Shown here in pieces: positions 7,014-64,000 of a stretch of DNA of 64,000 nucleotides; position 1 is the stretch's first letter; the number at the start of each line of letters is the position of its first letter. Both the position numbers and the translations under genes were made by a program. Origin of the DNA: Methanobrevibacter sp. YE315 (GTDB lineage: Archaea > Methanobacteriota > Methanobacteria > Methanobacteriales > Methanobacteriaceae); NCBI RefSeq assembly GCF_001548675.1, contig NZ_CP010834.1:779501-843500 (forward strand). Reading direction: 5' to 3'. The notes beneath the pieces were generated by a model. It was given only the letters and a program-made list of their open reading frames with translations. It was not told where the DNA came from and did no database searches.

Positions 7014-7014
7014 A

Positions 7015-7050
7015 TGGGAGAGATTTACTCCCAACTTTTTTTCTTTTTTT
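7015..7050 (+). terminator. Hairpin terminator after adhesin-like gene
   Basis: A 6-bp stem TGGGAG (7015-7020) / CTCCCA (7028-7033) with a 7-base loop is followed by a long T-rich tract (7036-7050). It begins just after the TAA at 7011-7013. It is a clear intrinsic-type terminator. Confidence 0.75.
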
Positions 7051-7202
7051 CAATAACACATTTTATATAATATTTTTAATAAATTGAATAGTAACGTTAA
7101 TAAAATTTTTTACATTCGTTATAATTAAAAGATAAAATTTTGATTTTTAACTTTATTTTTAATTATTAAATTGGAAATTTTATTAAATGATAATTTTTTG
7201 GG

Positions 7203-10970: not shown

Positions 10971-11094
10971 TGAATTTATTTCTTTATTTTTAAAATAACG
11001 CATTTTATATAGTTTATTGAATTCAAAGGTAATTTGGGGATGTAATAGATTAGATTGTGTTAAGGAGATTGATTAATAGAATTTTATGAGAATA

Positions 11095-11155
11095 TATTTA
11101 TATCACGATAGTTATATTATTATATATCGTATTTGGAAAATTTGGAGTAATTAAT
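11095..11155 (+). promoter_or_regulatory. Promoter and inverted repeat upstream of third plus-strand adhesin-like gene
   Basis: A TATA-like TATTTATATC lies at about 11095-11104. An inverted repeat ACGATA (11105-11110) / TATCGT (11125-11130) follows, spanning the predicted transcription start, and then a TTGGAG ribosome-binding site at about 11140-11145 before the ATG at 11156. The repeat position suits an operator; this is inferred. Confidence 0.4.
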
Positions 11156-32210: not shown

Positions 32211-35200
32211 ATGGAATTTTATGAAATAAAATTCAGCTTCAACCATAAGCTGATGGATAAAAAGAGTTTGGATACAGTCTTTAGTAATATTGGGGACTTG
32301 TTTGATGTGCGTTTTGATGAAAATTTAAATTTTTACCGTCAAAAAAATGATGGGGAAATTTACGAACTCAAGGAAGTCAGTGATGAGACAATTGAAAAAC
32401 AAATGAATATCTTTTTCAAATTCACATTCACCGACATTATTGATGTTCCTCTGTATAAATTTTTAGTTCTAAGATGTAATGATGAATTAACCATCTTGGC
32501 AAATATTCACTCTTCAATCTTTGACTACTCATCAGTAAATGTCATCAAGGAAATATTCAACAACCCTGAAGCATCCCATATTCCAAAAGACATAGGGCCT
32601 TACTTTGAAGAGTATGATGCATATCTAAATTCACCAGATTTTAAAAATGATAGCAGCTATTGGCAAAATAAACTTTTTGGTGCTGAAAATTATGTAAAAT
32701 ATTTCAATATAAAATCTAATAATTATAGAAACATCGGATTCTCGATTGAAAACGATTCAATTCTCACTTTTCTAAAAAATCATAAAATTTCCCGATATGA
32801 CTTTTTCACTGCTATCTTTTCACTATATCTGTCTCGCACAGATTCAACTGAAGGATGTCTATTGAAATCATCAATTAATGCTGATGAAGTTGTTTTTGGA
32901 TCACATGTCAAAAATACTTTATTGGTGATTGATTACTATAAAAATGACACTTTCGAAGAGTATCTGAACAGAATACAAAAGGATTATAAAGAAGCCATTG
33001 AACACACCAAAGTGCGTATTGAAGATTATGTTGACAGTTCATTTTATTATGCGATTCACGATTTCACTAATCTAAATGATATTGATGTTAGAAATGGAGA
33101 CGGATCCGCCCTAACATTCAATGTATACAAAGATTCAATTGATATCATATACAATTATGAGGTATTTTCGGATATTTACATTAGATATCTGATAGAAAAC
33201 ATAAAGCATTTGACCGATAATGTTTTGGAAGGCATCAACCAGCGTTGTGGCGATTTGGAATTTTTATCAATTGGGGAAAAGTATGATTTTAATGGGTTAT
33301 ATGAATTAACAGACTCTCAAATGACTATTTATAGGGATTCTCAAAATGGCACCGGCACCAGATATAATAACCCACTCAAATTAGGACTTGGAAATTCATA
33401 CCCTATAGCAAAAATAAAAAAAGCCATAAGCAAATTACTTAAATTACATCCAGTTTTAACTTCACGTATCATAGAAGAATGCCTAATGGGTTTTGATGCT
33501 AAACCTCCGGTAGTGGTCGGTTCAGCTGAAGACATTGAAACCTTTGTCCAGCCTTTTGAACTGAATAATTATCTGTCCCGTTTTTTAATTGTAGAAAATA
33601 AAAATGATGTATTTTTATGTATGGATTTTCACAGTTTGATTTTCGATGCAACCTCATTCAATACAGCAATAAACAGTTTATTGAAAATCTTAAATGGAGA
33701 AAATACTGAATTGGTGGATACTGGATTTTTAAGAGAAATATCATTTGAAGAAACCATTAACAATTCTGAATATAGGGATTACGCTCAAAAGTTCTATGAT
33801 AGCGCATTGTCTGAAAGGGATGAGGTAAATGATTTGATATTTTCCGTTGCTGAAGATAGCTCCAAATCTTATGTTGAACGGTTCAGCATTGATGATGAAA
33901 GTTTGACTTCATTTTTAGATTATCATAATATAACCCACAATCAATTTTTCACAAGCGTCTTTGCATATACATTATCAAGATTTACAGGATATTCTAAAGT
34001 TTTATTTAATTTGATTACAGATGGTAGGGCTCATCTGGGGTTGTCTGATTCTGTAGGAATGTTTTTCCAAACATCTCCAGTGCTGATGGAATGCGATAAT
34101 CAAAGTGTCGAATCATTCATGAATTACTCCAGTGATATAATTGATACTGTAAGCAAATTTGACCTGTATTCTTATCTGGACGTGGTGTTTGACTATCAGC
34201 TGGAAAATACAGTTTCATTTGGTGTTTTGCAGGATATATTTTCGTCTACACTAGATATAGAATTTGAGATGATGGAAAAGGACATGTGGGCTAATTTTTC
34301 AGTGGTGGTCTATTATGCAAAAGAGAATTCATTGGAAATAAGAATTTTCTACTCTGAAAAATACTCTGATAATTTTGTAAAACACTTTGCCAATTCATTC
34401 AAATTAATATTGGAGGGCATCGTTACCGAAGAGATGCTATCAGATATCAATTATATTGATGAATCTGATTTAAAACTTTTAGACAGTTACAATAAAACTG
34501 AATATCCTCTAATGTTTGATGATATTCTTGAAGCATTTAACTATAATTTGTTTAAAGATTTGGGCAGGCCTCTTGTATCATATAAAGATAAGGTTTATGA
34601 TTATGGTCAGGGAGCATTTATTGCAGATAAACTTGCCTGCACCTTAAAGGATGCCGGCGTTAGTGAAGGCGATAATGTTGCTTTTTTAGTTGAAAGATCT
34701 GAATTGTACATGTTCTGTATTTTAGGTGTTTTATCAACTGGCGCTAGATATGTTCCTTTAGATGATGCCCATCCGGATGAACATATTAAGTTCATATTAA
34801 ATGATACTTCAGCTAAGACAGTTATTGTCAGCGATGAAACTTACAATCGTGTCAAATACCTAAATGGTGATACATTTATCATTAACATTTCAGACATTGT
34901 CAATGGAGAAATTGAAGAGTTAGCTAGCTTACCCACTGTTAAATCTGATATTGCATGTATTCTTTATACCAGCGGGTCCACTGGCCTTCCTAAAGGTGTA
35001 AAAATTACAAGAAAAGCAATTTTAAATAGTGTGGAATCCTATGTCCATAAATATAATATGACTAATGAGGATGTCTATGGTTTATTTGCTACAATTGGCT
35101 TTAACACAGCTTCACTTGGAATATGTATAAGTTTTTATTCAGGAGCTTGCTTGTCAGTTGTTCCGGGAGACATTAAACTTGACATGGTAAAATTGAATGA

Positions 35201-36215
35201 TTATTTCATAGAACATGGAGTTACACATACCTTAATCACAACGCAAGTTGGAAAACTTTACATGGAAACTATTGATGAGTCTCCTTTAAGAATTATTACT
35301 GTAATTGGTGAAAAATTAGGGGAATTTGATAATCCTAATGATTATCATTTTGTAGATTCATTCGGACTTACTGAAGTGTTTTCAAGTATTACTTCATTAT
35401 ACAATACCAAAAAAATCGATTCATCTTCGATTGGTATGTGGAATTTCAATACCAAAATGTATATCTTGGATGCGGAATTGAGACGTGTGCCAGTTGGAGC
35501 TGTTGGGGAGTTATGCATTTCTGGTTATCAGATTTCAGACGGATATCTAAATAGGGAAAAAGAAAGCAGTAAAGCATTCGTAAATAACCCATTCAATGAC
35601 AGCAAAGATTACGGTGTTATGTTCCGTACAGGTGACATGGTAAGAATTTTGCCTGATGGAGCATTGGGTATTATCGGACGCCGTGACACTCAAGTAAAAA
35701 TCAGAGGGAATCGTGTAGAATTATCTGAAGTTGAATCTATCATCCGTCAATTGGATTATGTATCTGACGTAAGTGTTCAGACAGTTAAACATGAATCCAA
35801 TTATGAATTGGTGGCATATGTTGTTGCGGATAATAACTGTGACGAGGAAAAGCTCAGGGAAAATGTTCTGGAATATGTAGGTGAAAGCAAGCCTCCATTT
35901 ATGGTTCCATCATATGTAATAAAATTGGATGAAATTCCATTGAATGTAAATGGTAAAGTGGATAAACGTGCATTGCCTGACGTTAATCGTGATAAGCTGC
36001 GTGCAAAATATGTTGCTCCAACAAACGATGTGGAAAAAAGTATTGTAAGGGTATTTAAACTAATATTTGATCAGGATGATATAGGTATTCTTGATGACTT
36101 TGTTCGTCTTGGAGGAGATTCCCTGACAGCCATAAAAGTATTGTCATATCTTGAGGAATATAATTTCTCAACAGCGGATATTTTAAGGTTGCGCACCCCT
36201 CAAGCCATTGCAGCC
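32211..36215 (+). other. NRPS module 1: C-C-A-T, atypical loading unit
   Basis: Residues about 1-360 form a degenerate condensation-like domain; its motif region is HSSIFDYSS, with the second His (100) and Asp (105). A second condensation-like domain spans about 364-745, with DFHSLIFDATS (His 474). A1 spans about 768-1258. Its A4 region reads FNTASLG, with Asn 965 at the place of the amino-group-binding Asp, and GLTE replaces GPTE. By eye the pocket reads N-T-L-Q-T-I-S-S-S-K. The carrier serine is residue 1304. Two C-like domains before the first A domain suggest acyl-group starting. Confidence 0.7.
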
Positions 36216-39200
36216 AGTATACGTAATGATAAGGAATTCGATTTGGATATCTATTCTCTAAAGGATGGCTGCCCATTGAATGAGCCTCAATTAAATGTTT
36301 ATCTGGATATTATTGCTAATGAAAAGGTAAATGCATATAATCTTCCTTTCTTCATGAATATTTCTAATGATTATTCTCTCAGTGATATAGAGGAAGCATT
36401 GAATGTCATGTTTGATTTCCATCCTATATTACGAATGCATGTAAACGATGATTTTGAAGTTCCTTGCTTGGTTAATGGAAGAAAGCCATCAATTTCATTT
36501 TTGCATGCCATTGATAAGGATTTTATTCGTGACTTTTTGACTGAACCCTTTGATTTGTATGACAGTTTATCAAGATTCCTAATTGTTGAAAATGAAGATG
36601 GGTATGTATTATTTGCTGTTTTCCATCACTTGGTGTATGATGCTTCATCCAAACATATATTCAAACGTGATTTGCAGACAATCCTTGATGGAGGTTCCAT
36701 TGCATTAGATGTTTCATTCTTAAAGGTGGCTGCATTTAATCAGCAAATACAGGATACAAAAGAATTTAAAGAGGCTGAAGAATTCTATGCTTCCAGATTG
36801 ACAGATAGTGATGATGCAGGAATCTTATTGGAAGATGTATTGGGCGATGAACAGGGATTCCTTCAGACTACGTTGGAAATGGATAATGATGCATTTAATG
36901 GATTTTTAAAGGAATGCAACATCAGTGAAAATATCTTTTTCACCAGCGTATTTGCTTATACATTATCCAGATTCACTGGTAGCGATAAGGTTTCATTTAA
37001 CATAATAGAAAATGGGCGTGACAGATTCGATAATTTTGACTCTATTGGCATGTATGTTAACACATTACCTATTTTGGCTGACTGTAAAGACCAAAACATT
37101 TCTAGTTTCATGGAACAGATGTCTGATTTGGTTTATGATGTGATGAGACATAACTATTATCCATTTAGATTGCTGGCAAATCAGTATGATATTGATTCTG
37201 ATATTATTTTCCAATATTTGCCTGAATGGATAGAGTATGCTGACAATAATGCAGATAATTTGGATATTGAAAATGAATTAATTCCGTATTTGGATGATTC
37301 AGTTAATGATTTTACTGTTGATGTTAGGAAAATAGATGAAAGTTATATTTTGAATATTATCTACTCAGCTAAATTTTCCAAAGACATGTGCAAAACCTTT
37401 GCGGCAACATATAATCAGATTCTATCTCAGATGATTAGTCATAATAAATTGTCTGATATGGATTATGTTTCCCGGTCTGATCTGGAGCTTTTGGATGCCT
37501 TGAACCATAATGAGCATCTATTGGATTATGACGATATTTTAGATGCATTCAATGATAATCTTGCTCATCATCCTGAAAATAATCTTGTCTCTTATAAGGA
37601 TTCCGTTTACACTTATTCTGAAGGAACATTTATCGCTGATAAAATAGCAAAATATTTAAGGGATTATGACATTAAAACAGGTGATAATGTCTCTTTCCTT
37701 GTTGAACGTTCCGAGCTGTACATGTTCAGTGTTTTAGGTATTTTATCTGTTGGTGCTACTTATGTTCCTTTGGATGATGCTCATCCTGATGAACGTATAC
37801 AATTTATATTGGATGATACTGAATCTAAGGTTGTTATTGTTAGTGATGATACATATGAACGTGCTAAATCACTGGCAAAAGATGCAATCCTTTTAAATAT
37901 TTCAGATATTCTTAAAGAAGGTATTGGAAATTTAGATGAATTGCCTGTTGTTTATGGTGATGTGGCTTGTATGCTCTACACCAGTGGTACTACAGGTCTT
38001 CCTAAAGGTGTTAAAGTTACAAGAAAATCAATTCTTAATATTGCTGCCGTTTATGTTGATAAGTTTGACTTTGATAGTGATGATGTTTATGGTTTGTTTG
38101 CCAATATCAGTTTTGATGCTGGTTCATGGGGTATTTGCCAAACAATTTATGCAGGGGCATGTTTATCAATCGTTCCAGATGAAATTAAGCTAAATGTCCA
38201 AGAATTAAATAAATATTTCGTAGAACATGGTGTAACTCATTCAATGCTTACCACACAAGTAGGAAAACTATTTATGGATGGTATTGAAGACACTTCTTTA
38301 GATGTTTTAATGGTTGGTGGGGAAAAGTTAGGTGACTTTGAAAGTCCAGAAGATTATCTTTTAATTGATGGATTCGGACCAACAGAAACATTCGCATTCA
38401 TATCATCAATCAACAACAACGATAAGATTGATTCATCATCCATTGGTGATATTAACTATAATGCTAAGTTTTATGTCTTGGATAATGAGTTTAGGCGCGT
38501 GCCGGCAGGTGCTGTCGGTGAATTGTACATATCTGGTTATCAGGTTGCTGCCGGTTACTTGAACCGTGAAGAAGAAAACATCAATGCATTCATTGACAAT
38601 CCATTTGACAACGATGAAGATTATAGCACTTTATATCGTACTGGAGACATGGTGAGGTTGTTGCCGGATAGAACACTGGCTATCGTTGGTCGTCGTGACA
38701 GTCAAGTTAAAATCAGAGGAAACCGTGTGGAACTATCTGAAATCGAAGCAGTAATACGTGAAATAGATTATGTGGAAGATGTAACTGTTCAAACAATTAA
38801 ATTAGGCACCAACAATGAAATTGTAGCTTATGTTGTTGTATCAAAGGAATTTGACAGTGATGTGCTTAAAGAGAATATATCTGATTATGTCAATGAACGT
38901 AAGCCTGAATATATGGTCCCGTCATTTGTTATTGAATTGGATGAGATTCCATTGAATGTAAACGGTAAAGTTGACAAGCGTGCATTGCCTGATGTTGATA
39001 TGAGTAGTTTACGTGTGGAGTATGTTGCTCCTACCACTGAGGCTGAAAAATTAATTGTACATGCATTTGAAGAAGTCTTCAATCAGGACAATATTGGTGT
39101 TTATGATGATTTCACTCGTCTTGGTGGTGATTCATTAACTGCAATTAAAGTGCTGTCATATCTTGGCGACTATAATGTTACTGCAGCAGACATTTTGAGT

Positions 39201-57200: not shown

Positions 57201-60200
57201 GATGATTCATTCTTAAAAGTTTCTGCATTCAGTCAACAAATACAAGAAACAGACGAATATGCTGATGCTAAAAGCTTCTATGATAGAATGCTTGCGGATG
57301 TGGATGAAGTAAGTGGATTATTGAACTGTGTTGGTGGTGATGGTCCTGATGTTATTCTATTGGATTTGGAATTAGATTTAACCCAATTCAAATCATTCTT
57401 AAATAAGTATAATGTTAGTGAAAATGTACTGTTCACCGGCGTGTTTGCTTACACATTATCCAGATTTACCAGCAGTGACAATGTCTTTTTCAATGTTGCT
57501 GAGAATGGGCGTGGCAGATTCAACAATTACAATGCAATAGGAATGTATGTAAACACATTACCAATGTTGGCAGATTGTAAAGACCAAAATGTCTCTGATT
57601 TCATGGAATATATGTCTGATTTGGTATATGATGTAATGAAATATAATTATTATCCGTTCAGATTGCTTGCAAAAGAATATGGTATTGATTCAAGTATTTT
57701 TTTCCAATTCATGCCGGAATGGATAGATAATGATGATACAGACTACAGTGAATTTGAATCTATGCAGGAGGATAGTGAATCTGAAAACATAGAGGAGTTA
57801 ATTAGTGATTTAAGTATTGATATTATTCAAAAAGGCAGGTCTTATTCGATATGTCTTCAATATTCGGATAAATATTCCGGAGATGTGATGAATAGATTTG
57901 CTGAATCTTATAAATCAATATTATCACAAATAATCTGTGTTGATAAGTTAAGTGAAATTAATTATGTTTCAAAATCTGATTTGGAACTTTTAGATACATA
58001 TAATCAAACAGAACATGCTTTAGATTATGAAGATCTTCTGGATGCATTCAATGACAATCTTGCCAAATATCCGGATAGCAATCTTGTATCATATAATGAG
58101 AATGTTTATACTTATGCTGAAGGTGCATTTATTGCTGATAAGCTGGCCAATACATTAAAGGATTTGGGTGTTGAAAAGCAAGATTGTGTCGCATTCCTTG
58201 TGGAGCGTTCAGAGTTATATATGTTCAGTGTTTTAGGAATTTTGTCTGCGGGTGCGGTTTATGTTCCTTTAGATGATGTGTATCCTGATGATCGTATACG
58301 ATTCATTTTAGAGGATACTAGTTCCAAGGTTGTCATTGCCAGTGATGGAACTTATGAACGTGCTAAATTGTTAACTAATGATTCAGTCATCTTAAACATC
58401 TCAGATATATTGGGTGATGATATTGGAACATTGCATAGCTTGCCGATAGCTTATAATGATTTGGCTTGTATCTTATACACCAGCGGTACTACTGGCATTC
58501 CGAAAGGAGTAAAGATAACACGTAAATCAATTGTTAATTATGTGGATTATTATATCAATAAATCTGGCATGAATCACTGTGATGTCTTTGCGTTATATGC
58601 TTCCGTAAGCTTTGATGTAGGTGCTGTAAAAAGTATTTGCGCACCATTTTATTGCGGAGCTTGTCTAACAATTGTTCCACAGGATATTAGATTAGATATT
58701 AAAAAATTAAATGAACATTTCATTAAAAATGGTGTTACACATGCCCATCTCCCTACTCAAATATTTAAATTATTTATTAATGAAATCAAGGATACTTCAT
58801 TGAAAATTTTAGTAACTGGTGGGGAGAAGTTAGGTGAAATTAACCCTTCTGTCAATTATTCAGTAGTTGATTCTTATGGTCCAACAGAATGCTGTGTATC
58901 AGTAACTGCCATTGGAATAAAAGATAAAATAGACATATCATCAATCGGTTATTTATTCAACAATACTAAAGCATATGTTCTTGATAATGAAAACAGGCGT
59001 GTACCTATTGGTGCCGTTGGTGAATTATGCATTTCAGGTAATCAGGTAGCTGATGGTTATTTAAACCGTGATGAGGAAAATGCCAAAGCATTTATTGAAA
59101 ATCCATTCAGTGATGAAGAAGGGTATAAAACTCTGTATCGTACAGGGGATTTGGTAAGGTTGTTGCCTGATGGTTCTTTAGGTATTGTTGGTCGTCGTGA
59201 CAGTCAGGTTAAAATTAGGGGAAATCGTGTGGAGCTATTAGAAATTGAAGCGGTTATACGTGAAATGGACTTCATTGAGGATTTGACTGTTCAAACAGTT
59301 AAAAATGGTACTAACAATGAATTGGTTGCTTATGTTGTTGTATCTGATGAATTCGATGATGATGACCTTAAAGAGCATATATCTGCTTATGTTGGTGAAC
59401 GTAAGCCTGAATATATGGTTCCGTCATTTGTTGTTGAATTGGATGAGATTCCATTGAATGTAAATGGTAAGGTGGACAAACATGCACTGCCTGAAGTCGA
59501 TGTGGACAGTTTGCGTGCGGAGTATGTTGCTCCTACAAATGAAACTGAAAGGATAATTGTTGAGGCATTTGAACTTGTATTTGACCAAGAGGCCGTTAGT
59601 TTGTATGATGATTTTAATCGTCTTGGTGGTGATTCAATTAAATCCATAAGGCTTATTTCATTGCTTCAAAAAGAGGGTATTAATTGTGCTGCTAAGGATA
59701 TTTTAGATTATAAGACTCCATATGCTATTGCTCAAATTATTGAGGATAAGGTGCAAGTTTCTTATGATGCTGTTGAAGGTCCTGTTGATTTATTACCTAT
59801 TCAGAGTTATTTCTTTGATAAAGTCCATAAGAATGATTATACTCAGTCTTTTATTGTTAAATCTCTTGTTGATTTGGATGTTGGTATTTTGCAAAGTGCG
59901 TGGGATGAGTTATCTAATCTTCATGATATGTTGAGGGTAAGTTACAGTCTTGAAGATGGTGTTCCTATTCAGGAGATTCTGCCATTGAATACCCGGGTAT
60001 GTGAGATTAGGGAATTTGTTGTTGATGGTGATTTAGATCAGAATATTGCTGAAATTCATGAAAATGCCGTTAATTCACTTGATATTTATAATAATAGGAT
60101 GATGGATATTAGTTTGGTGAGACATGATGGTGAGTCTTATGTTATTTTTGTTCTACATCATTTGATTGTTGACGGTGTAAGCTGGAGCATTATATTGGAT

Positions 60201-63200
60201 GATTTAACTCATATATACAATAATCTGGTTTTGGGAAATGAAATTGATCTTTTAAGGCCTTATCCATATAAAAATTGGGTTGCAGATGTCAAAGGTTTAT
60301 TGGATGATATTTCTGTTGAAGAACGTGAGTATTGGATGGAAATTAATAATCAATTGGATGATTTGGATATTAAAGGTAAATCTAAACCTTTCATCTTTAA
60401 TATTGAAAATGCTGTGTATGATGTTGATAATATTTTGATGTTGTCTGAAGAGGAATATCTTGCATTGGCCATTGCACGTGCATATAAAAAGACTTATGAT
60501 AGGGATATAATTTTCAATCGTGAATCTTATGGTCGTGAAGAGACTTTGGCTGATGTTAACAGAACAGTTGGATGGTTCACTTCAGAATATCCGGTTATTG
60601 TACATGTTGGTAATGAGTATGATTATGTCTCTTTGATGGAGGATGTTTATAAGATTAAAAAAGCATTCAATGAAGTTAAAAAATTAGGTTTAAATTATTC
60701 TTCATTGATTTATACTGCTAATGAATTGGAGTTTAAGCATTGTCCTGTAACTTTCAACTTCTTAAGTACAGAATTTGAATTCAGAAACGAGTTGTTTGAA
60801 TCATATACTCCTAAAATATCTTTTGAAAATGAAATAGAATTTGAAGCTTCTGATGAAGATTATTATGGTATTGATTTAAATATTACACGTGAAAACGATG
60901 AGTATGTTGTATCTGGTAATTGTGCAGAAGGTACATATATTGATAATGCATTAAATGAGTTTATAAGCAATATTAAATGTGAATTAGAATTTATTGATGG
61001 TTATGGAATTGAAGACGGTATTGTCTGCTGCTTATCTGAATCCCAATTAGGAATTTATTTGGATGAAAAAGTCAACGATAAAGGTATAGCTTATACTTGT
61101 CCGGGTCTTGTTGAATGCAGTTCAGACTGTACTGTTGAAGATATGAAGAATGCGATTTTGACTTTGATTGATAAGCATCCTATTTTAAAAGGTCGTATTG
61201 TTGATAAGGGAGATTTACCATTAATTGTTTGTGATGGTGTCCCTGAAATTGAGGAGATTTTTACTGATGATTATGGAAGTCTAATTAAAGCTTTTAATTT
61301 TGGTGAGTGTCTTTCTTATTTCTATATTAATGATTGTGAAAAGGTCATATTTTACAATGTTCATCATATTATTGGGGATGCAACTACTGATTCAATAATA
61401 GTTGAAGACTTGCTTGCGGCTCTTGAAGGTAAGTTGGATGATGAAGTTGATTTAGGATTTGTATATGATAGTACTGATTCATTTAAATCTAAATTTGAAC
61501 CTATTTATGAATCTGCACATGAATTCTTTAATAACCTATTTGCAGATATTGATGAAGTAAACACTATTTTGGATGATTTTGATGGTACTTCGGAGAATTT
61601 ATCTCTTCCTGTTAGAGGTATTCGTGATCGTGTTGAAGAATTTACTTTTGAAAGGGGCATTACTGTAGGTGCGTTATTGAATTCGATATTTGCATATACA
61701 TATTCCCGCTTTGCAGGTAGTGATAAGGTTTACTATACTTTTACTGAGCATGGTCGTCATGAGGAGTATAACAAGAACGCTCTGGGAATGTTTGTTCGTA
61801 CAATTCCTCTATTGGTTGACTGTAAGGATGACTCAGTTGAAAACTTCTTAAGTTATTTCTCTGATTTGAACTTGAATGCAATGATAAATAGTGTTTATCC
61901 ATTCAGATTAATCGCAAAGGAGTTTGATTTGAATAATGATGTTGGTTTTGAATATAACTTTGATTTAAATGATGTATCTCATGTTAAAGATGAATTAGTC
62001 GTTGAACCTGTAGGGGATTTAGTTTCTGACTTTTCATGTGTCATTAATGATTTGGATGATGGATATCTTATCAGTTTGGAACATTCGGATAAGTATTCTC
62101 ATGAAACAGGTGTTCGTTTTGTTGAGGCATATTCTGAAATTTTAACCCAAATTTTGGATGCTGAAAGACTATCTGATATTGAATATGTTTCCGAATATGA
62201 TTTGGAGATTTTGGATGATATTAATAAAACTGAACATGCTTTGGTGTATGATGATATTTTGGATGCATTTAATGATAATCTTTCAGATAATCCGGATAAT
62301 GCTCTTGTATCATATGAGGATGATGTATATAGTTATGGTGAAGGAGCATTCATTGCTGATAAACTGGCTAAAACTTTAAAGGATATGGATGTTGATGAAC
62401 AGGATTGTGTTGCTTTCCTTGTTGAACGTTCTGAACTCTATATGTTCTGTGTTCTAGGTATTTTGTCTGTGGGTGCGGTTTATGTTCCTTTAGATGATGC
62501 TCACCCTGATGATCGTATACAGTTCATATTGGAGGATACTGCTGTTAAAGTTCTGATTGTAAGTGATGAAACTTATGAACGTGCAGGAATGTTGGTCAAT
62601 GATGGAGTTGTTCTTTTAAATATTTCCGATATGATGAAAGATGATATCGGTACTTTGGATGCTTTGCCTGTTGTTTATGGTGATTTGGCATGTATATTGT
62701 ACACCAGTGGTACTACTGGAATTCCTAAAGGTGTTAAAATTACTAGGAAATCTGTATTGAACCTGTCAGAGTTTTATATCCGAAAATATGGTCTTGGTGA
62801 AGATGATGTTTATGCATTGTTCGCTTCCATCGGATTTGATGTGGCAATGAAAGCCATATTCCCAACAATCTGTGCAGGAGCATGCTTGACTGTAATTCCG
62901 GGAGATATCAAACTAGATATGAACGCAATGAATGAATACTTCATTAAGCAAGGCGTAACACACACGGAAATATCCACACAGGTGGCCAAACTCTTCATAA
63001 GTCAGGTTGATGAAACTTCATTGAAAGTTTTAACAACCGGTGGAGAAAAGCTGGGTGAAAGTGAAATTGATGTGGATTACCGTTTCGTAGATTCATATGG
63101 TCCGACAGAAGCATGTGTGGACGTAACCAGTATTGATTCAGATGACAGAATCAATCCGTCATCTATCGGTTTCCTGCTTGACAACATCAAGGCTTATGTA

Positions 63201-64000
63201 TTGGATGATGAGTTCAGACGTGTGCCTGTCGGTGCAGTTGGTGAATTATACTTGGCAGGTAATCAAATAGCAGACGGATACCTCAATCGTGATGAAGAAA
63301 CAGTGAAAGCTTTCCTTGAAAATCCGTTCGATGAAGGAGAAGACTACAAGGTAATGTACAGGACAGGAGACATTGTGAGAGTCTTGCCTGATGGTTCTTT
63401 AGGTATTGTTGGTCGTCGTGACAGCCAGGTCAAAATCAGAGGAAACCGTGTGGAGCTGTCAGAAATCGAAGCGGTCATACGTGAAATAGACTTCATCGAG
63501 GATTTGACTGTTCAAACAGTTAAAAATGGTACTAACAATGAATTGGTTGCTTATGTTGTCGTATCTGATGAATTTGATGGTGATGACCTTAAAGAGGAAA
63601 TTTCTGCTTATGTTGATGAGCGTAAACCTAAGTATATGGTTCCGTCATTTGTTGTTGAATTGGATGAGATTCCATTGAATGTAAATGGTAAGGTGGACAA
63701 GCGTGCACTGCCTGAAGTTGATGTTAAAGAATTGCAAGTGGAGTATGTTGCACCAACCACTGAAACTGAAAAACGCATTGTTGAAGCATTTGAAAGGGTA
63801 TTTAATCAGGATAAAATTGGTATCTATGATGACTTCGTTCGTCTTGGTGGTGATTCATTAACTGCAATTAAAATAATCTCAATCTTGTCTAAATATGGTA
63901 TTAGTGTTAACGCCCAGTTTATTTTTGATAATAAAACTCCTTATCATATTGCAAAATTCATTGATGAAGGCAATGATGAATATGGATTCTATCTGGCCAA
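32211..64000 (+). CDS. Giant non-ribosomal peptide synthetase, nine modules visible, 3' end outside window
   Basis: One frame from the ATG at 32211 runs without stop to the window edge, giving at least 10,596 codons. I checked the frame at all nine carrier-protein serines, and all are in phase. Each module has a condensation domain (HHxxxDA, with A instead of the usual final G), an adenylation domain (core YTSGTTG.PKGVK, then GPTE, and RRDSQVKIRGNRVEL and NGKVDKRALP near the end) and a carrier domain with GGDSL or GGDSI. Modules 4, 6 and 8 add epimerisation domains (HHLIVDGVSW, DVNRTVGWFTSEYP). Domain order: C-C-A-T, C-A-T, C-A-T, C-A-T-E, C-A-T, C-A-T-E, C-A-T, C-A-T-E, C-A-T, then unseen. 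It assembles a peptide of at least nine units by the thiotemplate route and needs a phosphopantetheinyl transferase from elsewhere. NRPSs are rare in archaea and presumed to come from bacteria. Confidence 0.95.
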   Translation, partial: MEFYEIKFSFNHKLMDKKSLDTVFSNIGDLFDVRFDENLNFYRQKNDGEIYELKEVSDETIEKQMNIFFKFTFTDIIDVPLYKFLVLRCNDELTILANIHSSIFDYSSVNVIKEIFNNPEASHIPKDIGPYFEEYDAYLNSPDFKNDSSYWQNKLFGAENYVKYFNIKSNNYRNIGFSIENDSILTFLKNHKISRYDFFTAIFSLYLSRTDSTEGCLLKSSINADEVVFGSHVKNTLLVIDYYKNDTFEEYLNRIQKDYKEAIEHTKVRIEDYVDSSFYYAIHDFTNLNDIDVRNGDGSALTFNVYKDSIDIIYNYEVFSDIYIRYLIENIKHLTDNVLEGINQRCGDLEFLSIGEKYDFNGLYELTDSQMTIYRDSQNGTGTRYNNPLKLGLGNSYPIAKIKKAISKLLKLHPVLTSRIIEECLMGFDAKPPVVVGSAEDIETFVQPFELNNYLSRFLIVENKNDVFLCMDFHSLIFDATSFNTAINSLLKILNGENTELVDTGFLREISFEETINNSEYRDYAQKFYDSALSERDEVNDLIFSVAEDSSKSYVERFSIDDESLTSFLDYHNITHNQFFTSVFAYTLSRFTGYSKVLFNLITDGRAHLGLSDSVGMFFQTSPVLMECDNQSVESFMNYSSDIIDTVSKFDLYSYLDVVFDYQLENTVSFGVLQDIFSSTLDIEFEMMEKDMWANFSVVVYYAKENSLEIRIFYSEKYSDNFVKHFANSFKLILEGIVTEEMLSDINYIDESDLKLLDSYNKTEYPLMFDDILEAFNYNLFKDLGRPLVSYKDKVYDYGQGAFIADKLACTLKDAGVSEGDNVAFLVERSELYMFCILGVLSTGARYVPLDDAHPDEHIKFILNDTSAKTVIVSDETYNRVKYLNGDTFIINISDIVNGEIEELASLPTVKSDIACILYTSGSTGLPKGVKITRKAILNSVESYVHKYNMTNEDVYGLFATIGFNTASLGICISFYSGACLSVVPGDIKLDMVKLNDYFIEHGVTHTLITTQVGKLYMETIDESPLRIITVIGEKLGEFDNPNDYHFVDSFGLTEVFSSITSLYNTKKIDSSSIGMWNFNTKMYILDAELRRVPVGAVGELCISGYQISDGYLNREKESSKAFVNNPFNDSKDYGVMFRTGDMVRILPDGALGIIGRRDTQVKIRGNRVELSEVESIIRQLDYVSDVSVQTVKHESNYELVAYVVADNNCDEEKLRENVLEYVGESKPPFMVPSYVIKLDEIPLNVNGKVDKRALPDVNRDKLRAKYVAPTNDVEKSIVRVFKLIFDQDDIGILDDFVRLGGDSLTAIKVLSYLEEYNFSTADILRLRTPQAIAASIRNDKEFDLDIYSLKDGCPLNEPQLNVYLDIIANEKVNAYNLPFFMNISNDYSLSDIEEALNVMFDFHPILRMHVNDDFEVPCLVNGRKPSISFLHAIDKDFIRDFLTEPFDLYDSLSRFLIVENEDGYVLFAVFHHLVYDASSKHIFKRDLQTILDGGSIALDVSFLKVAAFNQQIQDTKEFKEAEEFYASRLTDSDDAGILLEDVLGDEQGFLQTTLEMDNDAFNGFLKECNISENIFFTSVFAYTLSRFTGSDKVSFNIIENGRDRFDNFDSIGMYVNTLPILADCKDQNISSFMEQMSDLVYDVMRHNYYPFRLLANQYDIDSDIIFQYLPEWIEYADNNADNLDIENELIPYLDDSVNDFTVDVRKIDESYILNIIYSAKFSKDMCKTFAATYNQILSQMISHNKLSDMDYVSRSDLELLDALNHNEHLLDYDDILDAFNDNLAHHPENNLVSYKDSVYTYSEGTFIADKIAKYLRDYDIKTGDNVSFLVERSELYMFSVLGILSVGATYVPLDDAHPDERIQFILDDTESKVVIVSDDTYERAKSLAKDAILLNISDILKEGIGNLDELPVVYGDVACMLYTSGTTGLPKGVKVTRKSILNIAAVYVDKFDFDSDDVYGLFANISFDAGSWGICQTIYAGACLSIVPDEIKLNVQELNKYFVEHGVTHSMLTTQVGKLFMDGIEDTSLDVLMVGGEKLGDFESPEDYLLIDGFGPTETFAFISSINNNDKIDSSSIGDINYNAKFYVLDNEFRRVPAGAVGELYISGYQVAAGYLNREEENINAFIDNPFDNDEDYSTLYRTGDMVRLLPDRTLAIVGRRDSQVKIRGNRVELSEIEAVIREIDYVEDVTVQTIKLGTNNEIVAYVVVSKEFDSDVLKENISDYVNERKPEYMVPSFVIELDEIPLNVNGKVDKRALPDVDMSSLRVEYVAPTTEAEKLIVHAFEEVFNQDNIGVYDDFTRLGGDSLTAIKVLSYLGDYNVTAADILSLRTPFAIAKSIKENTLDLDIYTLEEGCPLNEPQLNVYLDIIANNKFNIYLIPSIMDIAKDYDIEDILEALDVMLDVHPILGTCISDENEIPCLIKGFRPSIEFKSYAADDYIIKFLTKPFNLYESLSRFLLVEEDEGYSLFAVFHHIIFDALSDGVFKQDLQTILDGGSVEVDDSFLKVSAFSQQIQDTDEYSDASVFYDAMLADVDEVGGLLDSVGGDGPDVVQLDLELDLTQFKSFLSKYEVSENILFTGVFAYTLSRFVGSENVFFNITENGRGRFNNYNAIGMYVNTLPMIVDCKDQNVSDFMEYMSDLVYDVMKYNYYPFRLLAKEYGIDSSILFQFMPEWIRDNDADYSEFESMEEDNESENIDELISDLSIDIIQKGRSYSICLQYSDKYSGDVMNRFAESYKAILSQIICVDKLSEINYVSKSDLELLDTYNQTEHALDYEDLLDAFNDNLAKYPDSNLVSYNENVYTYAEGAFIADKLANTLKDLGVENQDCVAFLVERSELYMFSVLGILSAGAVYVPLDDLHPDERIRFILEDTSSKVVIASDGTYERAKLLTNDSVILNISDILGDDIGTLHSLPIAYNDLACILYTSGTTGFPKGVKITRKSILNISQYYRDIYGLFSDDVYGLFSAIGFDVSSFVISAVIYVGACLSVIPEDIRLDMLELNKYFMNQNVSHAFITTQVGKYFMQSVDETSLDVLLVAGEKLGEFKSPNHYQLVDAYGPTEAFAFVSSINNNDKLDGSSVGMLSLNTKAYILDNQQRRIPVGAIGELYLAGYQVAAGYLNRDEENAKAFIENPFSDEEEYKTLYRTGDLVRLLPDGSLGIVGRRDSQVKIRGNRVELSEIEAVIREIDYIDDLTVQTIKNGTNNELVAYVVVSDEFDGDDLKEDISNYVDERKPKYMIPSFVVELDEIPLNVNGKVDKRALPDVDVDSLRVEYVAPTTEAEKLIVHAFEEVFNQDNIGVYDDFTRLGGDSLTAIKVRSYLGDYNVTAADILSLRTPFAIGENIKENTLDLDIYTLEEGCPLNEPQLNVYLDIIANNKFDIYMIPSIMEISKEYDVGDILNALDVMLDVHPILGMCVSDDYEVPYLVKGSKPSIVVEHDADEDIIKEFLTKPFDLYDNLARFLIVESEDEYKLFAIFHHIIFDARSGGVFKEDLQTILDGGIVEVDDSFLKVSAFSQQIMDTDEYSDANVFYDTMLADVDEVSGLLDSVDGDGPDVVQLDLELDFTLFKSFLNKYEVSENVLFTGVFAYTLSRFAGSENIFFNITENGRGRFNNYNAIGMYVNTLPILVDCKDWNVSDFMEYMSDLVYDVMKYNYYPFRLLAKEYGIDSSILFQFLPEWINNDDADYSEFESMREDNDSENIEELISDLGIDIIQKAKSYSIRLQYSAKYSKYMMNRFAESYKSILSQIICVDKLSEINYISQSDLELLDALNNNEHPLDYDDILDAFNDNLAHHPENNLVSYKDSVYTYAEGAFIADKIAKYLRDHDIKTGDNVAFLVERSELYMFSVLGILSVGATYVPLDDAHPDDRIQFIMDDTESKVVLVSDETYERAKSLIKDVTLLNISDILNEGIKTLDKLSVVYGDVACILYTSGTTGLPKGVKVTRKAILNIATVYVDKFGFGKDDVYGLFANISFDAGSQAVCQTFYAGACLSVVPDDIKMNIWELNEYFVEHGVTHAMITTQVGKLFVENVEDTSMEVLTVGGEKLGDFESPEDYLLIDGFGPTETFAFISSINNDDKIDSSSIGQINYNTKFYVLDDEFRRVPICAVGELYVSGYQVAAGYLNREEENIMAFIDNPFDNDEDYSTLYRTGDMVRLLPDGSLGIVGRRDSQVKIRGNRVELSEIEAVIREMDFIEDLTVQTVKNGTNNELVAYVVVSDEFDGDGLKEEISAYVGERKPEYMVPSFVVELDEIPLNVNGKVDKHALPEVDVKELQVEYVAPTNEIERIIVEAFELVFDQETVSLYDDFNRLGGDSIKSIRLISLLQKEGINCAAKDILDYKTPYAIAQIIEDKVQVSYDAVEGPVDLLPIQSYFFDKVHKNDYTQFFVVKSLVDLDVGILQSAWDELSNLHDMLRVSYSLEDGVPIQEILPLNTRVCEIREFVVDGDLDQNIAEIHENAVNSLDIYNNRMMDISLVRHGDESYVIFVLHHLIVDGVSWSIILDDLTHIYNNLVSGNEIDILRPYPYKNWVADVKGLLDDISVEEREYWMEINNQLDDLDIKGKSKPFIFNIENAVYDVDNILMLSEEEYLALAIARAYKKTYDRDIIFNRESYGREETLADVNRTVGWFTSEYPVIVDVGNEYDYVSLMEDVYKIKKAFNEVKKLGLNYSSLIYTANELEFKHCPVTFNFLSGAFEFKNELFESYISKISLDDLSKMGSSDDDYYGIDLNIRRENDDYIVSGNCAEGTYIDNALNEFISNIKCELEFIGGYGIEDGIVCCLSESQLGIYLDEKVNDKGIAYASPGFVECSSDCTVEDMKNAIGALIDKHPVLKGRIVDDSNLPLIVCDSNPVIEEIDHNNYENLIRPFNLTESLCCFYINAYEKVIFYNMHHVISDATSDSIIRQDILAALDGSLDDEIDLGFVYDSTDSFKSKFEPIYESAHEFFNNLFADIDEVNTILDDFDGTSENLSLPVRGIRDRVEEFALEKGITVGALLNSIFAYTYSRFVGTDKVYYTFTEHGRHEEYNKESLGMYVRTIPLLVDCKDDSVENFLSYFSELNLNSMINSVYPFRLLASEYDLNNDVSFEYNFDLNDVSHVENELIVGSVPDLVSDISCIVNDLDDGYLVNLEHSNRYSHETGVRFVEAYAEILTQIVDVEKLSDINYVSVSDLEILDSINQTEHSLVHEDILDAFNENLNKNPDNALVSYFDVSYTYSEGAFIANKLTDTLRNLGVESQDKVAFLVERSELYMFCVLGVMSMGAIYVPLDDKHPDDRIQFILEDTRASVLIVDDNTYERAESLTDDAILLNISDIMKEDVGTLDELPVVYGDLACILYTSGTTGIPKGVKITRKSVLNLSEFYIRKYGLSENDIYALFASIGFDVAMKAIFPTICSGACLTVIPDAIKLDMASMNDYFMKYGVTHTEISTQVAKLFISQVDETSLKVLTTGGEKLGESEINVDYRFVDSYGPTEACVDVTSIDSDERIDSSSIGFLLDNIKAYVLDNDFRRVPVGAVGELYLAGNQIADGYLNRDEETTKAFLENPFEDGEDYGVMYRTGDMVRVLSDGSLGIVGRRDSQVKIRGNRVELSEIEAVIREIDYIDDLTVQTIKNGTNNELVAYVVVSDEFDGDDLKQDISNYVDERKPKYMIPSFVIELDEIPLNVNGKVDKRALPDVDMDSLRVEYVAPTTEAEKLIVHAFEEVFNQDKIGVYDDFVNLGGDSLTAIKVLSYLGDYNVTATDILSLRTPFAIAESIKEDTLDLDIYTLENGCPLNEPQLNVYLDIVANNKFDIYLIPSIMEIGNEYDMDSILNALDVILDVHPILSTCISDDNEIPYLVKGPKPSIEFKSDVDDDYIIEFLIKPFDLYDSLSRFLVVGNDEGYSLYSVFHHIIFDALSDGVFKKDLQTILDGGSVDIDDSFLKVSAFSQQIQETDEYSDAKSFYDRMLADVDEVSGLLDCADGDGLGIIQLNLELDLTQFKSFLRKCKVSENVLFTGVFAYTLSRFTGSDRVSFNVIENGRGRFNNYNAIGMYVNTLPMLVDCKDWNVSDFMEYMSDLVYDVMKYNYYPFRLLAKEYGIDSSILFQFIPEWIESDDTNYSEFESMHEDSGSEKIDELISDLGIDIIQKGESYSICLQYSARYSEDVMNRFAESYKSILSQIICVDKLSEINYVSDYDLELLDTYNQTEHALKYDDILDAFNDNLSDNPDNALVSYEDDVYSYGEGAFIADKLAKTLKDMDVGEQDCVAFLVERSELYMFCVLGILSAGAVYVPLDDAHPDDRIQFILEDTAAKVLIVSDETYERARMLISDDVVLLNISDMMKEDIGTLDALPVCYGDLACILYTSGTTGVPKGVKITRKSVLNLSEFYIRKYGLGEDDVYALFASIGFDVAMKAIFPTICAGACLSVIPGDIKLDMNAMNEYFIKQGVTHTEISTQVAKLFISQVDETSLKVLTTGGEKMGESEIDVEYRFVDSYGPTEACVDVTSIDLDERIDSSSIGFLLDNIKAYVLDDEFRRVPVGAVGELYLAGNQIADGYLNRDEETVKAFLENPFDEGEDYRVMYRTGDIVRVLADGSLGIVGRRDSQVKIRGNRVELSEIEAVIREMDFIEDLTVQTVKNGTNNELVAYVVVSDEFDGDGLKKEISAYVGERKPEYMVPSFVIELDEIPLNVNGKVDKHALPEVDVKELQVEYVAPTNEIERIIVEAFELVFDQETVSLYDDFNRLGGDSIKSIRLISLLQKEGINCAAKDILDYKTPYAIAQIIEDKVQVSYDAVEGPVDLLPIQSYFFDKVHKNDYTQSFIVKSLVDLDVGILQSAWDELSNLHDMLRVSYSLEDGVPIQEVLPLNTRVCEIREFVVDGDLDQNIAEIHENAVNSLDIYNNRMMDISLVRHDGESYVIFVLHHLIVDGVSWSIILDDLTHIYNNLVSGNEIDILRPYPYKNWVEDVKGLLDDISVEEREYWMEINNQLDDLDIKGKSRPFIFNIENAVYDVDNILMLSEEEYLALAIARAYKKTYDRDIIFNRESYGREETLADVNRTVGWFTSEYPVIVDVGNEYDYVSLMEDVYKIKKAFNEVKKLGLNYSSLIYTANELEFKHCPVTFNFLSGAFEFKNELFESYAPKISLDDLSKMGSSDDDYYGIDLNIRRENDDYIVSGNCAEGTYIDNALNEFISNIKCELEFIGGYGIEDGIVCCLSESQLGIYLDEKVNDKGIAYASPGLVECSSDCTVEDMKNAIRALIDKHPILKGRIVNGDGFPLIVCDGVPEIEEIFTDDYGSLIKAFNFGECLSYFYINDCEKVIFYNVHHIIGDATTDSIIVEDLLAALEGKLDDEVDLGFVYDSTDSFKSKFEPIYESAHEFFNNLFADIDEVNTILDDFDGTSENLSLPVRGIRDRVEEFTFERGITVGALLNSIFAYTYSRFVGTDKVYYTFTEHGRHEEYNKNALGMFVRTIPLLVDCKDDSVESFLSYFSDLNLNAMINSVYPFRLIAKEFDLNNDVGFEYNFDLNDVSHVKDELVVEPVGDLVSDFSCVINDLDDGYLISLEHSDKYSHETGVRFVEAYSEILTQILDAERLSDIEYVSKYDLEILDDINKTEHALVYDDILDAFNNNLSDNPDNALVSYEDDVYSYAEGAFIADKLAKTLKDMDVDEQDCVAFLVERSELYMFCVLGILSAGAVYVPLDDAHPDDRIRFILEDTNSKVVIASDGTYERAKLLTNDSVILNISNILGDDIGTLSNLPIVYNDLGCILYTSGTTGLPKGVKVPRTAFVNLSSYYVRNYGLTSDDVFGLYSSIGFDAAYKAIFAAIYAGACLDVIPNDVKLDTDALNNHFIKQGINHVDITTQVAKLLISQVDHIPLDVLFTGGEKLGEFNEEIDCRFVDGYGPTEAYVEVSTVDVADRIDSSSIGHLVDNIKAYVLDDEFRHVPVGAVGELYLAGNQIADGYLNRDKETNNAFLNNPFEDGEDYGVMYRTGDMVRVLSDGSLGVVGRRDNQVKIRGNRVELSEIEETIREMGYIDDLTVQTVKNGTNNELVAYVVVSDEFDGGDLKEEIFDYVGERKPKYMIPSFVVELDEIPLNVNGKVDKRALPDVDVDSLRVEYVAPTTEAEKLIVHAFEEVFNQDNIGVYDDFTHLGGDSLTAIKVLSYLGDYNITAADILSLRTPFAIAESIKEDTLDLDIYTLESGCPLNESQLNVYLDIVANNKFDIYLIPSIMEIGNEYDMDSILNALDVILDVHPILGMCVSDDNDVPYLVKGVKPSIEFKSYANDDYLMEFLTKPFELYDSLSRFLVVGNDEGYSLYSVFHHIIFDALSDGVFKKDLQTILDGGSVEVDDSFLKVSAFSQQIQETDEYADAKSFYDRMLADVDEVSGLLNCVGGDGPDVILLDLELDLTQFKSFLNKYNVSENVLFTGVFAYTLSRFTSSDNVFFNVAENGRGRFNNYNAIGMYVNTLPMLADCKDQNVSDFMEYMSDLVYDVMKYNYYPFRLLAKEYGIDSSIFFQFMPEWIDNDDTDYSEFESMQEDSESENIEELISDLSIDIIQKGRSYSICLQYSDKYSGDVMNRFAESYKSILSQIICVDKLSEINYVSKSDLELLDTYNQTEHALDYEDLLDAFNDNLAKYPDSNLVSYNENVYTYAEGAFIADKLANTLKDLGVEKQDCVAFLVERSELYMFSVLGILSAGAVYVPLDDVYPDDRIRFILEDTSSKVVIASDGTYERAKLLTNDSVILNISDILGDDIGTLHSLPIAYNDLACILYTSGTTGIPKGVKITRKSIVNYVDYYINKSGMNHCDVFALYASVSFDVGAVKSICAPFYCGACLTIVPQDIRLDIKKLNEHFIKNGVTHAHLPTQIFKLFINEIKDTSLKILVTGGEKLGEINPSVNYSVVDSYGPTECCVSVTAIGIKDKIDISSIGYLFNNTKAYVLDNENRRVPIGAVGELCISGNQVADGYLNRDEENAKAFIENPFSDEEGYKTLYRTGDLVRLLPDGSLGIVGRRDSQVKIRGNRVELLEIEAVIREMDFIEDLTVQTVKNGTNNELVAYVVVSDEFDDDDLKEHISAYVGERKPEYMVPSFVVELDEIPLNVNGKVDKHALPEVDVDSLRAEYVAPTNETERIIVEAFELVFDQEAVSLYDDFNRLGGDSIKSIRLISLLQKEGINCAAKDILDYKTPYAIAQIIEDKVQVSYDAVEGPVDLLPIQSYFFDKVHKNDYTQSFIVKSLVDLDVGILQSAWDELSNLHDMLRVSYSLEDGVPIQEILPLNTRVCEIREFVVDGDLDQNIAEIHENAVNSLDIYNNRMMDISLVRHDGESYVIFVLHHLIVDGVSWSIILDDLTHIYNNLVLGNEIDLLRPYPYKNWVADVKGLLDDISVEEREYWMEINNQLDDLDIKGKSKPFIFNIENAVYDVDNILMLSEEEYLALAIARAYKKTYDRDIIFNRESYGREETLADVNRTVGWFTSEYPVIVHVGNEYDYVSLMEDVYKIKKAFNEVKKLGLNYSSLIYTANELEFKHCPVTFNFLSTEFEFRNELFESYTPKISFENEIEFEASDEDYYGIDLNITRENDEYVVSGNCAEGTYIDNALNEFISNIKCELEFIDGYGIEDGIVCCLSESQLGIYLDEKVNDKGIAYTCPGLVECSSDCTVEDMKNAILTLIDKHPILKGRIVDKGDLPLIVCDGVPEIEEIFTDDYGSLIKAFNFGECLSYFYINDCEKVIFYNVHHIIGDATTDSIIVEDLLAALEGKLDDEVDLGFVYDSTDSFKSKFEPIYESAHEFFNNLFADIDEVNTILDDFDGTSENLSLPVRGIRDRVEEFTFERGITVGALLNSIFAYTYSRFAGSDKVYYTFTEHGRHEEYNKNALGMFVRTIPLLVDCKDDSVENFLSYFSDLNLNAMINSVYPFRLIAKEFDLNNDVGFEYNFDLNDVSHVKDELVVEPVGDLVSDFSCVINDLDDGYLISLEHSDKYSHETGVRFVEAYSEILTQILDAERLSDIEYVSEYDLEILDDINKTEHALVYDDILDAFNDNLSDNPDNALVSYEDDVYSYGEGAFIADKLAKTLKDMDVDEQDCVAFLVERSELYMFCVLGILSVGAVYVPLDDAHPDDRIQFILEDTAVKVLIVSDETYERAGMLVNDGVVLLNISDMMKDDIGTLDALPVVYGDLACILYTSGTTGIPKGVKITRKSVLNLSEFYIRKYGLGEDDVYALFASIGFDVAMKAIFPTICAGACLTVIPGDIKLDMNAMNEYFIKQGVTHTEISTQVAKLFISQVDETSLKVLTTGGEKLGESEIDVDYRFVDSYGPTEACVDVTSIDSDDRINPSSIGFLLDNIKAYVLDDEFRRVPVGAVGELYLAGNQIADGYLNRDEETVKAFLENPFDEGEDYKVMYRTGDIVRVLPDGSLGIVGRRDSQVKIRGNRVELSEIEAVIREIDFIEDLTVQTVKNGTNNELVAYVVVSDEFDGDDLKEEISAYVDERKPKYMVPSFVVELDEIPLNVNGKVDKRALPEVDVKELQVEYVAPTTETEKRIVEAFERVFNQDKIGIYDDFVRLGGDSLTAIKIISILSKYGISVNAQFIFDNKTPYHIAKFIDEGNDEYGFYLA
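36216..39225 (+). other. NRPS module 2: C-A-T
   Basis: The condensation domain starts near 36265 (CPLNEPQLNVYL) with FHHLVYDASS. A2 spans about 37530-38990, with FDAGSWG and Asp 1969. The pocket by eye is D-A-W-Q-M-G-G-A-F-K. The carrier serine is residue 2308. A2 shares long near-identical stretches with A4 at an offset of 6033 bp, differing at pocket position 3 (Trp versus Gln). Confidence 0.8.
39226..42240 (+). other. NRPS module 3: C-A-T
   Basis: The condensation domain has FHHIIFDALS. A3 spans about 40540-42005, with FDVSSFV. The pocket by eye is D-V-F-Q-L-A-A-A-F-K, hydrophobic enough to suggest a non-polar side chain (weak inference). The carrier serine is residue 3313, exactly 3015 bp after that of module 2. 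The A3 flanks recur around a different core in A8. Confidence 0.8.
42241..46545 (+). other. NRPS module 4: C-A-T-E (D-residue)
   Basis: The condensation domain has FHHIIFDARS. A4 spans about 43560-45020, with FDAGSQA and pocket D-A-Q-Q-T-G-G-A-F-K. The carrier reads GGDSIKSIRL (serine 4318), the form usual before epimerisation domains. E4 spans about 45290-46540 and has LLPIQSYFF, HHLIVDGVSW, ESYGREE and VNRTVGWFTS. This module should deliver a D-amino acid. Confidence 0.85.
46546..49475 (+). other. NRPS module 5: C-A-T
   Basis: The condensation domain after E4 should be of the D-acceptor type; it opens CLSESQLGIYLDEK and has HHVISDATS. A5 spans about 47780-49235, with FDVAMKA and pocket D-V-K-Q-T-G-S-V-D-K, the same as A6 and A9. 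Lys at the third pocket position also occurs in the surfactin Glu code, so an acidic or amide side chain is possible (weak). The carrier serine is residue 5724. Confidence 0.8.
49476..53780 (+). other. NRPS module 6: C-A-T-E (D-residue)
   Basis: The condensation domain has FHHIIFDALSDG. A6 spans about 50795-52255 and has the same pocket residues as A5, so the two should load the same residue. The carrier is GGDSIKSIRL (serine 6730), exactly 7236 bp after that of module 4. E6 (about 52526-53776) is almost identical to E4 at this offset. Confidence 0.85.
53781..56710 (+). other. NRPS module 7: C-A-T
   Basis: The condensation domain has HHIIGDATT. A7 spans about 55015-56465, with FDAAYKA and pocket D-A-K-Q-F-G-G-V-E-K, a different core within flanks shared with A3, A6 and A8. 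The carrier serine is residue 8136, exactly 7236 bp after that of module 5. Confidence 0.8.
56711..61017 (+). other. NRPS module 8: C-A-T-E (D-residue), swapped A core
   Basis: The condensation domain has FHHIIFDALSDG. A8 spans about 58030-59475. Its ends match A3, but the core at about 58490-59065 differs strongly: it has FDVGAVKS with one extra codon, and pocket about D-V-(V/K)-Q-V-G-S-V-S-K. The carrier is GGDSIKSIRL (serine 9142), 7236 bp after that of module 6. E8 spans about 59760-61015. Confidence 0.85.
61018..64000 (+). other. NRPS module 9: C-A-T, continues past window
   Basis: The condensation domain is nearly identical to that of module 7 (HHIIGDATT). A9 spans about 62245-63705, with the same pocket as A5 and A6. 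The carrier reads GGDSLTAIKIIS (serine 10549), but its second half (SKYGISVNAQFIFDNKTPYH) differs from the other carriers. This may mark the junction to a terminal release domain or a different module beyond the window. Confidence 0.75.

Follow-up and report, generated by a model that had tools for sequence, protein, structure and literature searches.

The NRPS of 10,815 aa described here appears to have lost the unit with which most of its relatives begin. We consider it likely that its assembly line is initiated by module 1 and sets free a nonapeptide whose residues 4, 6 and 8 are in the D form, and that a primer unit was excised from the enzyme before the catalytic histidine of its second condensation domain, C2, was lost. 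Archaeal NRPSs are already well documented, and the novelty of this one lies at its initiation end and not in its size. Size, which the original prediction had put forward, is less informative than the loss of the starter, which that prediction had not seen.

The window, a DNA stretch of 64,000 nucleotides without a single N, corresponds to positions 779501-843500 of contig C1, which is the only contig (2,273,296 bases) of a genome estimated as 99.96% complete. As the window carries genes for ribosomal protein L15e and an archaeal histone, its source is archaeal. The NRPS frame (32211..63998, + strand) begins with an ATG preceded by in-frame stops and a GAGG stretch resembling a ribosome-binding site, contains no internal stop and is open at the window edge. 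Followed beyond that edge, it terminates at position 844158 of contig C1 and comprises 32,448 nt including the stop. The predicted archaeal NRPS of more than 10,500 residues, in one frame of at least 31.8 kb, is therefore real, and its relatives are found in Methanobrevibacter. The claim of exceptional size also holds, since this is the longest NRPS frame among the matches listed from 67 congeneric and 151 Methanobacteriales genomes, a ranking valid only among those matches, where other frames are shortened by MAG contig ends; the next longest are of 8,210 aa (same genome) and 7,216 aa. For Methanobrevibacter sp. YE315, seven proteins with a length of 5000 aa or more have been reported (PMC11573180).

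In the domain scan, the N-terminal half was ordered C1-C2-A1-T1 / C-A-T / C-A-T / C-A-T-E / C-A-T and the C-terminal half (modules 6-9) C-A-T-E / C-A-T / C-A-T-E / C-A-T-TE. The features are as follows.

28211..29986, - strand: ABC exporter half-transporter 2, in the same operon as half-transporter 1 (Pfam; orthologues 75% and 63%)
29986..31695, - strand: ABC exporter half-transporter 1, divergent from the NRPS gene (Pfam ABC_membrane and ABC_tran)
32211..33284, + strand: C1, degenerate condensation-like domain, aa 1-358, HSSIFDY (Pfam Condensation, 2.7e-14)
33285..34520, + strand: C2, condensation domain directly after C1, aa 359-770, HSLIFDA (Pfam, 1.5e-22; alignment; junction comparison)
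34593..36227, + strand: module 1, A1-T1, aa 795-1339, code NTLTTISSSK (Pfam; pocket extraction)
36249..39239, + strand: module 2, C-A-T, code DAWTMGGAFK (domain scan; pocket code)
39258..42254, + strand: module 3, C-A-T, code DVFTLAAAFK (domain scan; pocket code)
42273..45272, + strand: module 4, C-A-T, followed by E, code DAQTTGGAFK (domain scan; pocket code)
45288..46577, + strand: E domain 1, HHLIVDG, NRTVGWFTSEYP (motifs; domain scan; PDB matches)
46530..49487, + strand: module 5, C-A-T, after E, code DVKTTGSVDK (domain scan; pocket code)
49506..52508, + strand: module 6, C-A-T, followed by E, code DVKTTGSVDK (domain scan; pocket code)
52524..53813, + strand: E domain 2 (motifs; domain scan; dS 0.028 to E domain 1)
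53766..56723, + strand: module 7, C-A-T, code DAKTFGGVEK (domain scan; pocket code)
56742..59744, + strand: module 8, C-A-T, followed by E, code DVKTVGSVSK (domain scan; pocket code)
59760..61049, + strand: E domain 3 (motifs; domain scan)
61002..63965, + strand: module 9, C-A-T, code DVKTTGSVDK (domain scan; pocket code)
843511-844155 of contig C1 (L014:511-1155), just beyond the window, + strand: terminal thioesterase, aa 10601-10815 (conserved Ser, Asp and His; profile)

The AMP-binding, AMP-binding_C, PP-binding and Condensation domains all scored above the Pfam cut-off, and the motif scan found nine copies each of the A3 motif TSG[ST]TG, of LGGDS with the carrier serine and of NGKVD with its lysine. 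The polypeptide is thereby a modular type I NRPS with repeated C-A-T units, and the nine modules of the original prediction were correct, although the three E domains, the terminal thioesterase and the tandem degenerate C domains at the N-terminus had escaped it. Catalytic residues are intact in every A domain (A3 and A10 lysine, 9/9), every T domain (serine, 9/9) and every elongation C domain (HHxxxD, 8/8). Both N-terminal C domains lack HHxxxDG, the catalytic motif that marks an N-terminal C domain as a starter condensation (lipo-initiation) domain. The E-type motifs HHLIVDG and GREE...RTVGWFTSEYP occur in three copies between a T domain and the next C domain, as is typical of E domains. Chains of the bacitracin, gramicidin S and tyrocidine synthetases are among the best PDB matches of the E domain and share its T-E-C arrangement; the present enzyme differs from them in that the similarity is distant, the host archaeal and all nine modules are on one polypeptide. 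Asp235 of A domains binds the α-amino group of the substrate. The A1 pocket has Asn at this position, which may indicate that the first module is inactive or reprogrammed. The combination of K239 and D331 in A5, A6 and A9 recalls Glu codes and is at most a lead to the substrate, pocket codes having no validated archaeal references.

Close homologues of the NRPS occur in about one fifth of the 67 genomes of the genus. Most of them begin with C1-A'-T'-C2(HHxxxDG)-A1-T1, in which T' is a carrier domain (PCP'), as do homologues in other genera of the family. Starter-bearing genes include, among others, those of G013, G015, G035 and G101 (loci L048, L047, L051 and L086). In the A' domains, which are 54-84% identical among themselves apart from one identical pair, pocket extraction gave Ile or Val at the position of Asp235, and they therefore probably load a non-amino-acid primer, i.e., a carboxylic acid without an α-amino group. 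In the window gene and in two MAG relatives, G022 (taken as Methanobrevibacter sp. RGIG7892 from water buffalo, L059) and G027 (taken as RUI021, L060), C1 is fused straight to C2 and A'-T' is absent, so that the initiation type of Methanobacteriaceae NRPSs is not found in the window gene. Measured between the same points, the gap from C1 to C2 is 0 aa in the window gene versus 584-596 aa in the relatives with A'-T', and the junction, LSxGEK joined to YDFNG, is common to the window gene and G022. Aligned in this way, the sequences show A'-T' to have been excised exactly and in frame in the ancestor of the branch. The second histidine of C2 has been lost in all three genes without A'-T' (HS in the window gene, HT in G022, HS in G027), and it is kept in 17 of the 17 genes that bear A'-T', four genomes from two other genera included. 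The starter-bearing relatives (e.g., G013, G035 and G101) have homologous C1, C2, A1 and later modules at about 40-50% identity, and differ from the window gene in retaining A'-T' and the C2 HHxxxDG and in having no ABC exporter pair beside the gene within the stretches examined. Two further copies of the C1-A'-C2 type, in MAG RUG11428 (L072 and L073), are frame-broken, through decay or assembly errors.

The window gene, G022 and G027 formed one clade with support of 100/100 in both the C1 and the C2 tree. The protein of G023 begins at C2, where the motif reads HQ, and a tree uniting G023 with this clade was not rejected (p-AU 0.59), so there may have been one or two loss events. The loss of A'-T' and the histidine change thus amount to one event, perhaps two, and their association is not one of many independent cases. 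Loss is the parsimonious direction since two further genera of the family have A'-T' (G077 and G101, G102, G104). HH is the standard state of C domains, and it is accordingly less likely that the other clade acquired A'-T'. Supply of A' in trans was rejected: no copy was found elsewhere in the genome, where the best match has only 32% identity versus the 54-84% seen among A' domains.

Compared with G022, dN/dS was 0.18 for C1, 0.11 for C2 and 0.15 for the pair, with dS of 0.9-1.7 and so near saturation. Judged by these ratios, purifying selection still acts on the C1-C2 pair, which is not decaying, for which reason 'vestigial' may be the wrong term. The AlphaFold model of C1 (pLDDT 85) has a C-domain fold and matched NRPS C domains in the PDB, including those of LgrA, Txo2 and DhbF (E ~1e-19), with X domains among the matches. 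Between module copies dN/dS was 0.08-0.36. The view that the frame is under selection is upheld by these values; that it is functional is what we infer. The frame had also been described as intact across highly repetitive DNA, and intact it is, but the locus is not a simple repeat, since the copies differ and the longest exact repeat in the gene is 421 bp.

Modules 4-5, 6-7 and 8-9 form a repeating period of 2,412 aa. The DNA of the E domains is mostly 97-99% identical per 300-nt window over ~1.3 kb, falling to 88-89% in places, unlike the A cores, which differ between module copies. Pairwise identity changes abruptly in three places, the C-A linker, the vicinity of A3 and the region of A7: modules 7 and 9 are 88-100% identical in their C domains versus 66-72% in their A cores, and modules 6 and 9 are 88-99% identical in their A domains versus 44-57% in their C domains. 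On this pattern the modules are mosaics. A-core recombination between NRPS modules has been described for bacteria in a paper in which the word 'archaea' does not occur (PMC8097286); the abrupt change of identity inside A between paralogous modules is common to both cases, whereas here the exchange pattern lies inside one archaeal gene.

At the C-terminus, no thioesterase match was obtained at the Pfam threshold of 0.001 (the best value, 0.02, is below the cut-off). Ser, Asp and His are nevertheless conserved across three aligned sequences, and a profile built from these matched only thioesterases or chains of the surfactin and fengycin synthetases (E 0.003-0.03). These are the marks of the release domain of a modular NRPS, and on this evidence the terminal thioesterase is a divergent one. 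For priming of the carriers, the same genome has an Sfp-like PPTase of 212 aa at position 554657 of contig C1, whose closest model is AusB (7e-23, under that model's equivalog cut-off). The original prediction had named the absence of a phosphopantetheinyl transferase as an argument against itself, and this argument falls away. The orthologues of half-transporter 1 (76% and 59%) adjoin the NRPS genes of G022 and G027, the exporter pair as a whole being 75-76% identical to that of G022 and 59-63% to that of G027. The pair is thus linked to the NRPS in three of three clade members, divergent in the window and G022; in G027 it lies upstream of the NRPS and is co-directional, only a few tens of bases away. 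Because the linkage survives this change of orientation, an export role is supported, and the nonapeptide is probably exported by the adjacent pair.

From the architecture we infer the nonapeptide, the D positions, the type of primer and the export, and the line, carried on a single polypeptide of an archaeon from Methanobrevibacter sensu lato, could work as follows. The PPTase would prime the nine carrier domains, module 1 would load the first building block, and the eight elongation C domains with intact HHxxxD would link nine units. The E domains after modules 4, 6 and 8 would turn residues 4, 6 and 8 to the D form, the serine thioesterase would free a linear or cyclic nonapeptide and the ABC pair would export it. 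In the ancestral line, C1-A'-T'-C2-A1-T1, A'-T' would have given a non-amino-acid primer, which C2 would have condensed onto residue 1. A precise in-frame excision of A'-T' in the ancestor of the branch would have left C2 without its upstream donor; its catalytic histidine would then have been lost and initiation shifted to module 1.

The N-terminus could be read differently. Instead of being relics, C1 and C2 may have been repurposed for a role that involves no condensation chemistry, either binding the first carrier domain or recruiting a separate enzyme to it, in the manner of the X domain of glycopeptide synthetases, to which P450s are recruited. Such a role would fit their dN/dS of 0.18 and 0.11 despite the lost catalytic histidine, the conservation of C1 across the family, and the C-domain fold of C1 with X domains among its structural matches. 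However, no partner enzyme was identified next to the gene and purifying selection may preserve merely folding and the contacts with A1, and we regard repurposing as somewhat unlikely. It seems to us less likely again that after the excision the dead C1-C2 persisted as a platform without catalysis and that the loading of a primer lacking an α-amino group passed to A1 with its N235. A primer might also be supplied in trans, as an acyl carrier or CoA thioester condensed by C1 or C2, to give an N-acylated nonapeptide. The two C domains ahead of A1 would suit this, and bacterial lipopeptide NRPSs do have starter C domains with acyl donors; yet C1 and C2 (both HS) are without the second histidine that all eight elongation C domains keep, and no A'-like protein exists elsewhere in the genome, which makes this route improbable.

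Two further doubts concern the gene as such. Near-identical E-domain DNA over ~1.3 kb is of a type that short reads mis-assemble, and collapsed or mis-joined repeats could make the module number or the N-terminal junction wrong. Such an artefact is highly improbable, given that the copies have distinct differences and mosaic neighbours with no exact repeat beyond 421 bp, that the sequence is one complete contig free of N in the window, and that two MAGs assembled independently show the C1-C2 junction as well. The gene could also be silent or dying, its frame intact by chance of recent origin and with no product; the abnormal pocket of module 1 (N235), the missing histidine in both N-terminal C domains and the existence of frame-broken relatives (L072, L073) point that way. 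Against this stand 10,815 codons without a stop, dN/dS of 0.08-0.36 between module copies and 0.15 versus G022, and the intactness of all T serines, A10 lysines and elongation HHxxxD motifs, so that a dying gene is very unlikely. Initiation at module 1 after excision of the primer unit remains the reading that we consider likely.

The rarity of archaeal NRPSs is not supported. Condensation domains were found in 79 of 151 Methanobacteriales genomes (E<=1e-20), and a rumen survey gives 687 NRPS clusters in 125 archaeal genomes (PMC8241843). Strong full-length C1 matches within Methanobacteriales fell in three genera. When 84,980 species genomes were scanned with the C1 alignment, within the reach of the scan patterns, 15 loci came up, all in Methanobrevibacter; the same scan with the window's own 930 aa gave no match, and the source genome is probably absent from that collection. 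The first report of archaeal NRPSs concerned M. ruminantium (PMC2812497) and a later one M. arboriphilus (PMC5467289), and lauric acid alters the expression of one M. ruminantium NRPS gene, two MatE genes and a PPTase gene (PMC5816558), from which it follows that methanogen NRPS genes are transcribed. The literature found describes no product of a methanogen NRPS, and the passages covered of these four papers do not treat this specific gene. The NRPSs mru_0068 and mru_0351 of M. ruminantium M1 (PMC2812497) share with the window NRPS methanogen C-A-T modules, a terminal thioesterase and a genomic PPTase, but they have two and four modules and MatE exporters, unlike the window NRPS with its nine modules, three E domains, two-gene ABC exporter and N-terminal tandem of inactive C domains. 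The rumen Methanobrevibacter clusters of PMC8241843 belong to the same organism group; that survey groups whole loci and, in the passages covered, does not describe module architecture or starter loss.

The genome holds other NRPS loci. A second giant frame (8,210 aa, eight A domains; L015/L016, about positions 1449067-1473696 of contig C1, - strand) ends in a reductase-like, NAD-binding region and not in a thioesterase. An unusual locus (L018:64-12051, positions 1575064-1587051 of contig C1, - strand) has two NRPS genes, for proteins of 1,684 and 1,027 aa, with three ATP-grasp ligase genes in tandem after them. At L017:6600-16421, a 2,237-aa NRPS and a MatE exporter lie beside the genome's only PPTase match and resemble mru_0068/0069 of M. 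ruminantium. Around the window gene, we observed three large adhesin-like proteins in a row with beta-helix and Ig-like domains (window positions 5178-16078), a protein of 1,420 aa that has a SAP domain at its N-terminus and long repeats rich in Asp, Leu and Ser (L014:7756-12018), and a bacterial-looking cluster in which an AraC-type regulator precedes an ABC exporter pair and apparent ECF-type transporter genes (L014:12382-19875).

The four NRPS loci total ~72 kb, some 3% of the 2.27-Mb genome, and for this reason their products probably matter to the cell. The prediction for the present locus is concrete and can be tested: a nonapeptide whose residues 4, 6 and 8 are D and whose N-terminus is free or unusual. 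The locus is also a case from nature, useful for NRPS engineering, in which a starter was deleted exactly and in frame and the next active site was lost afterwards.
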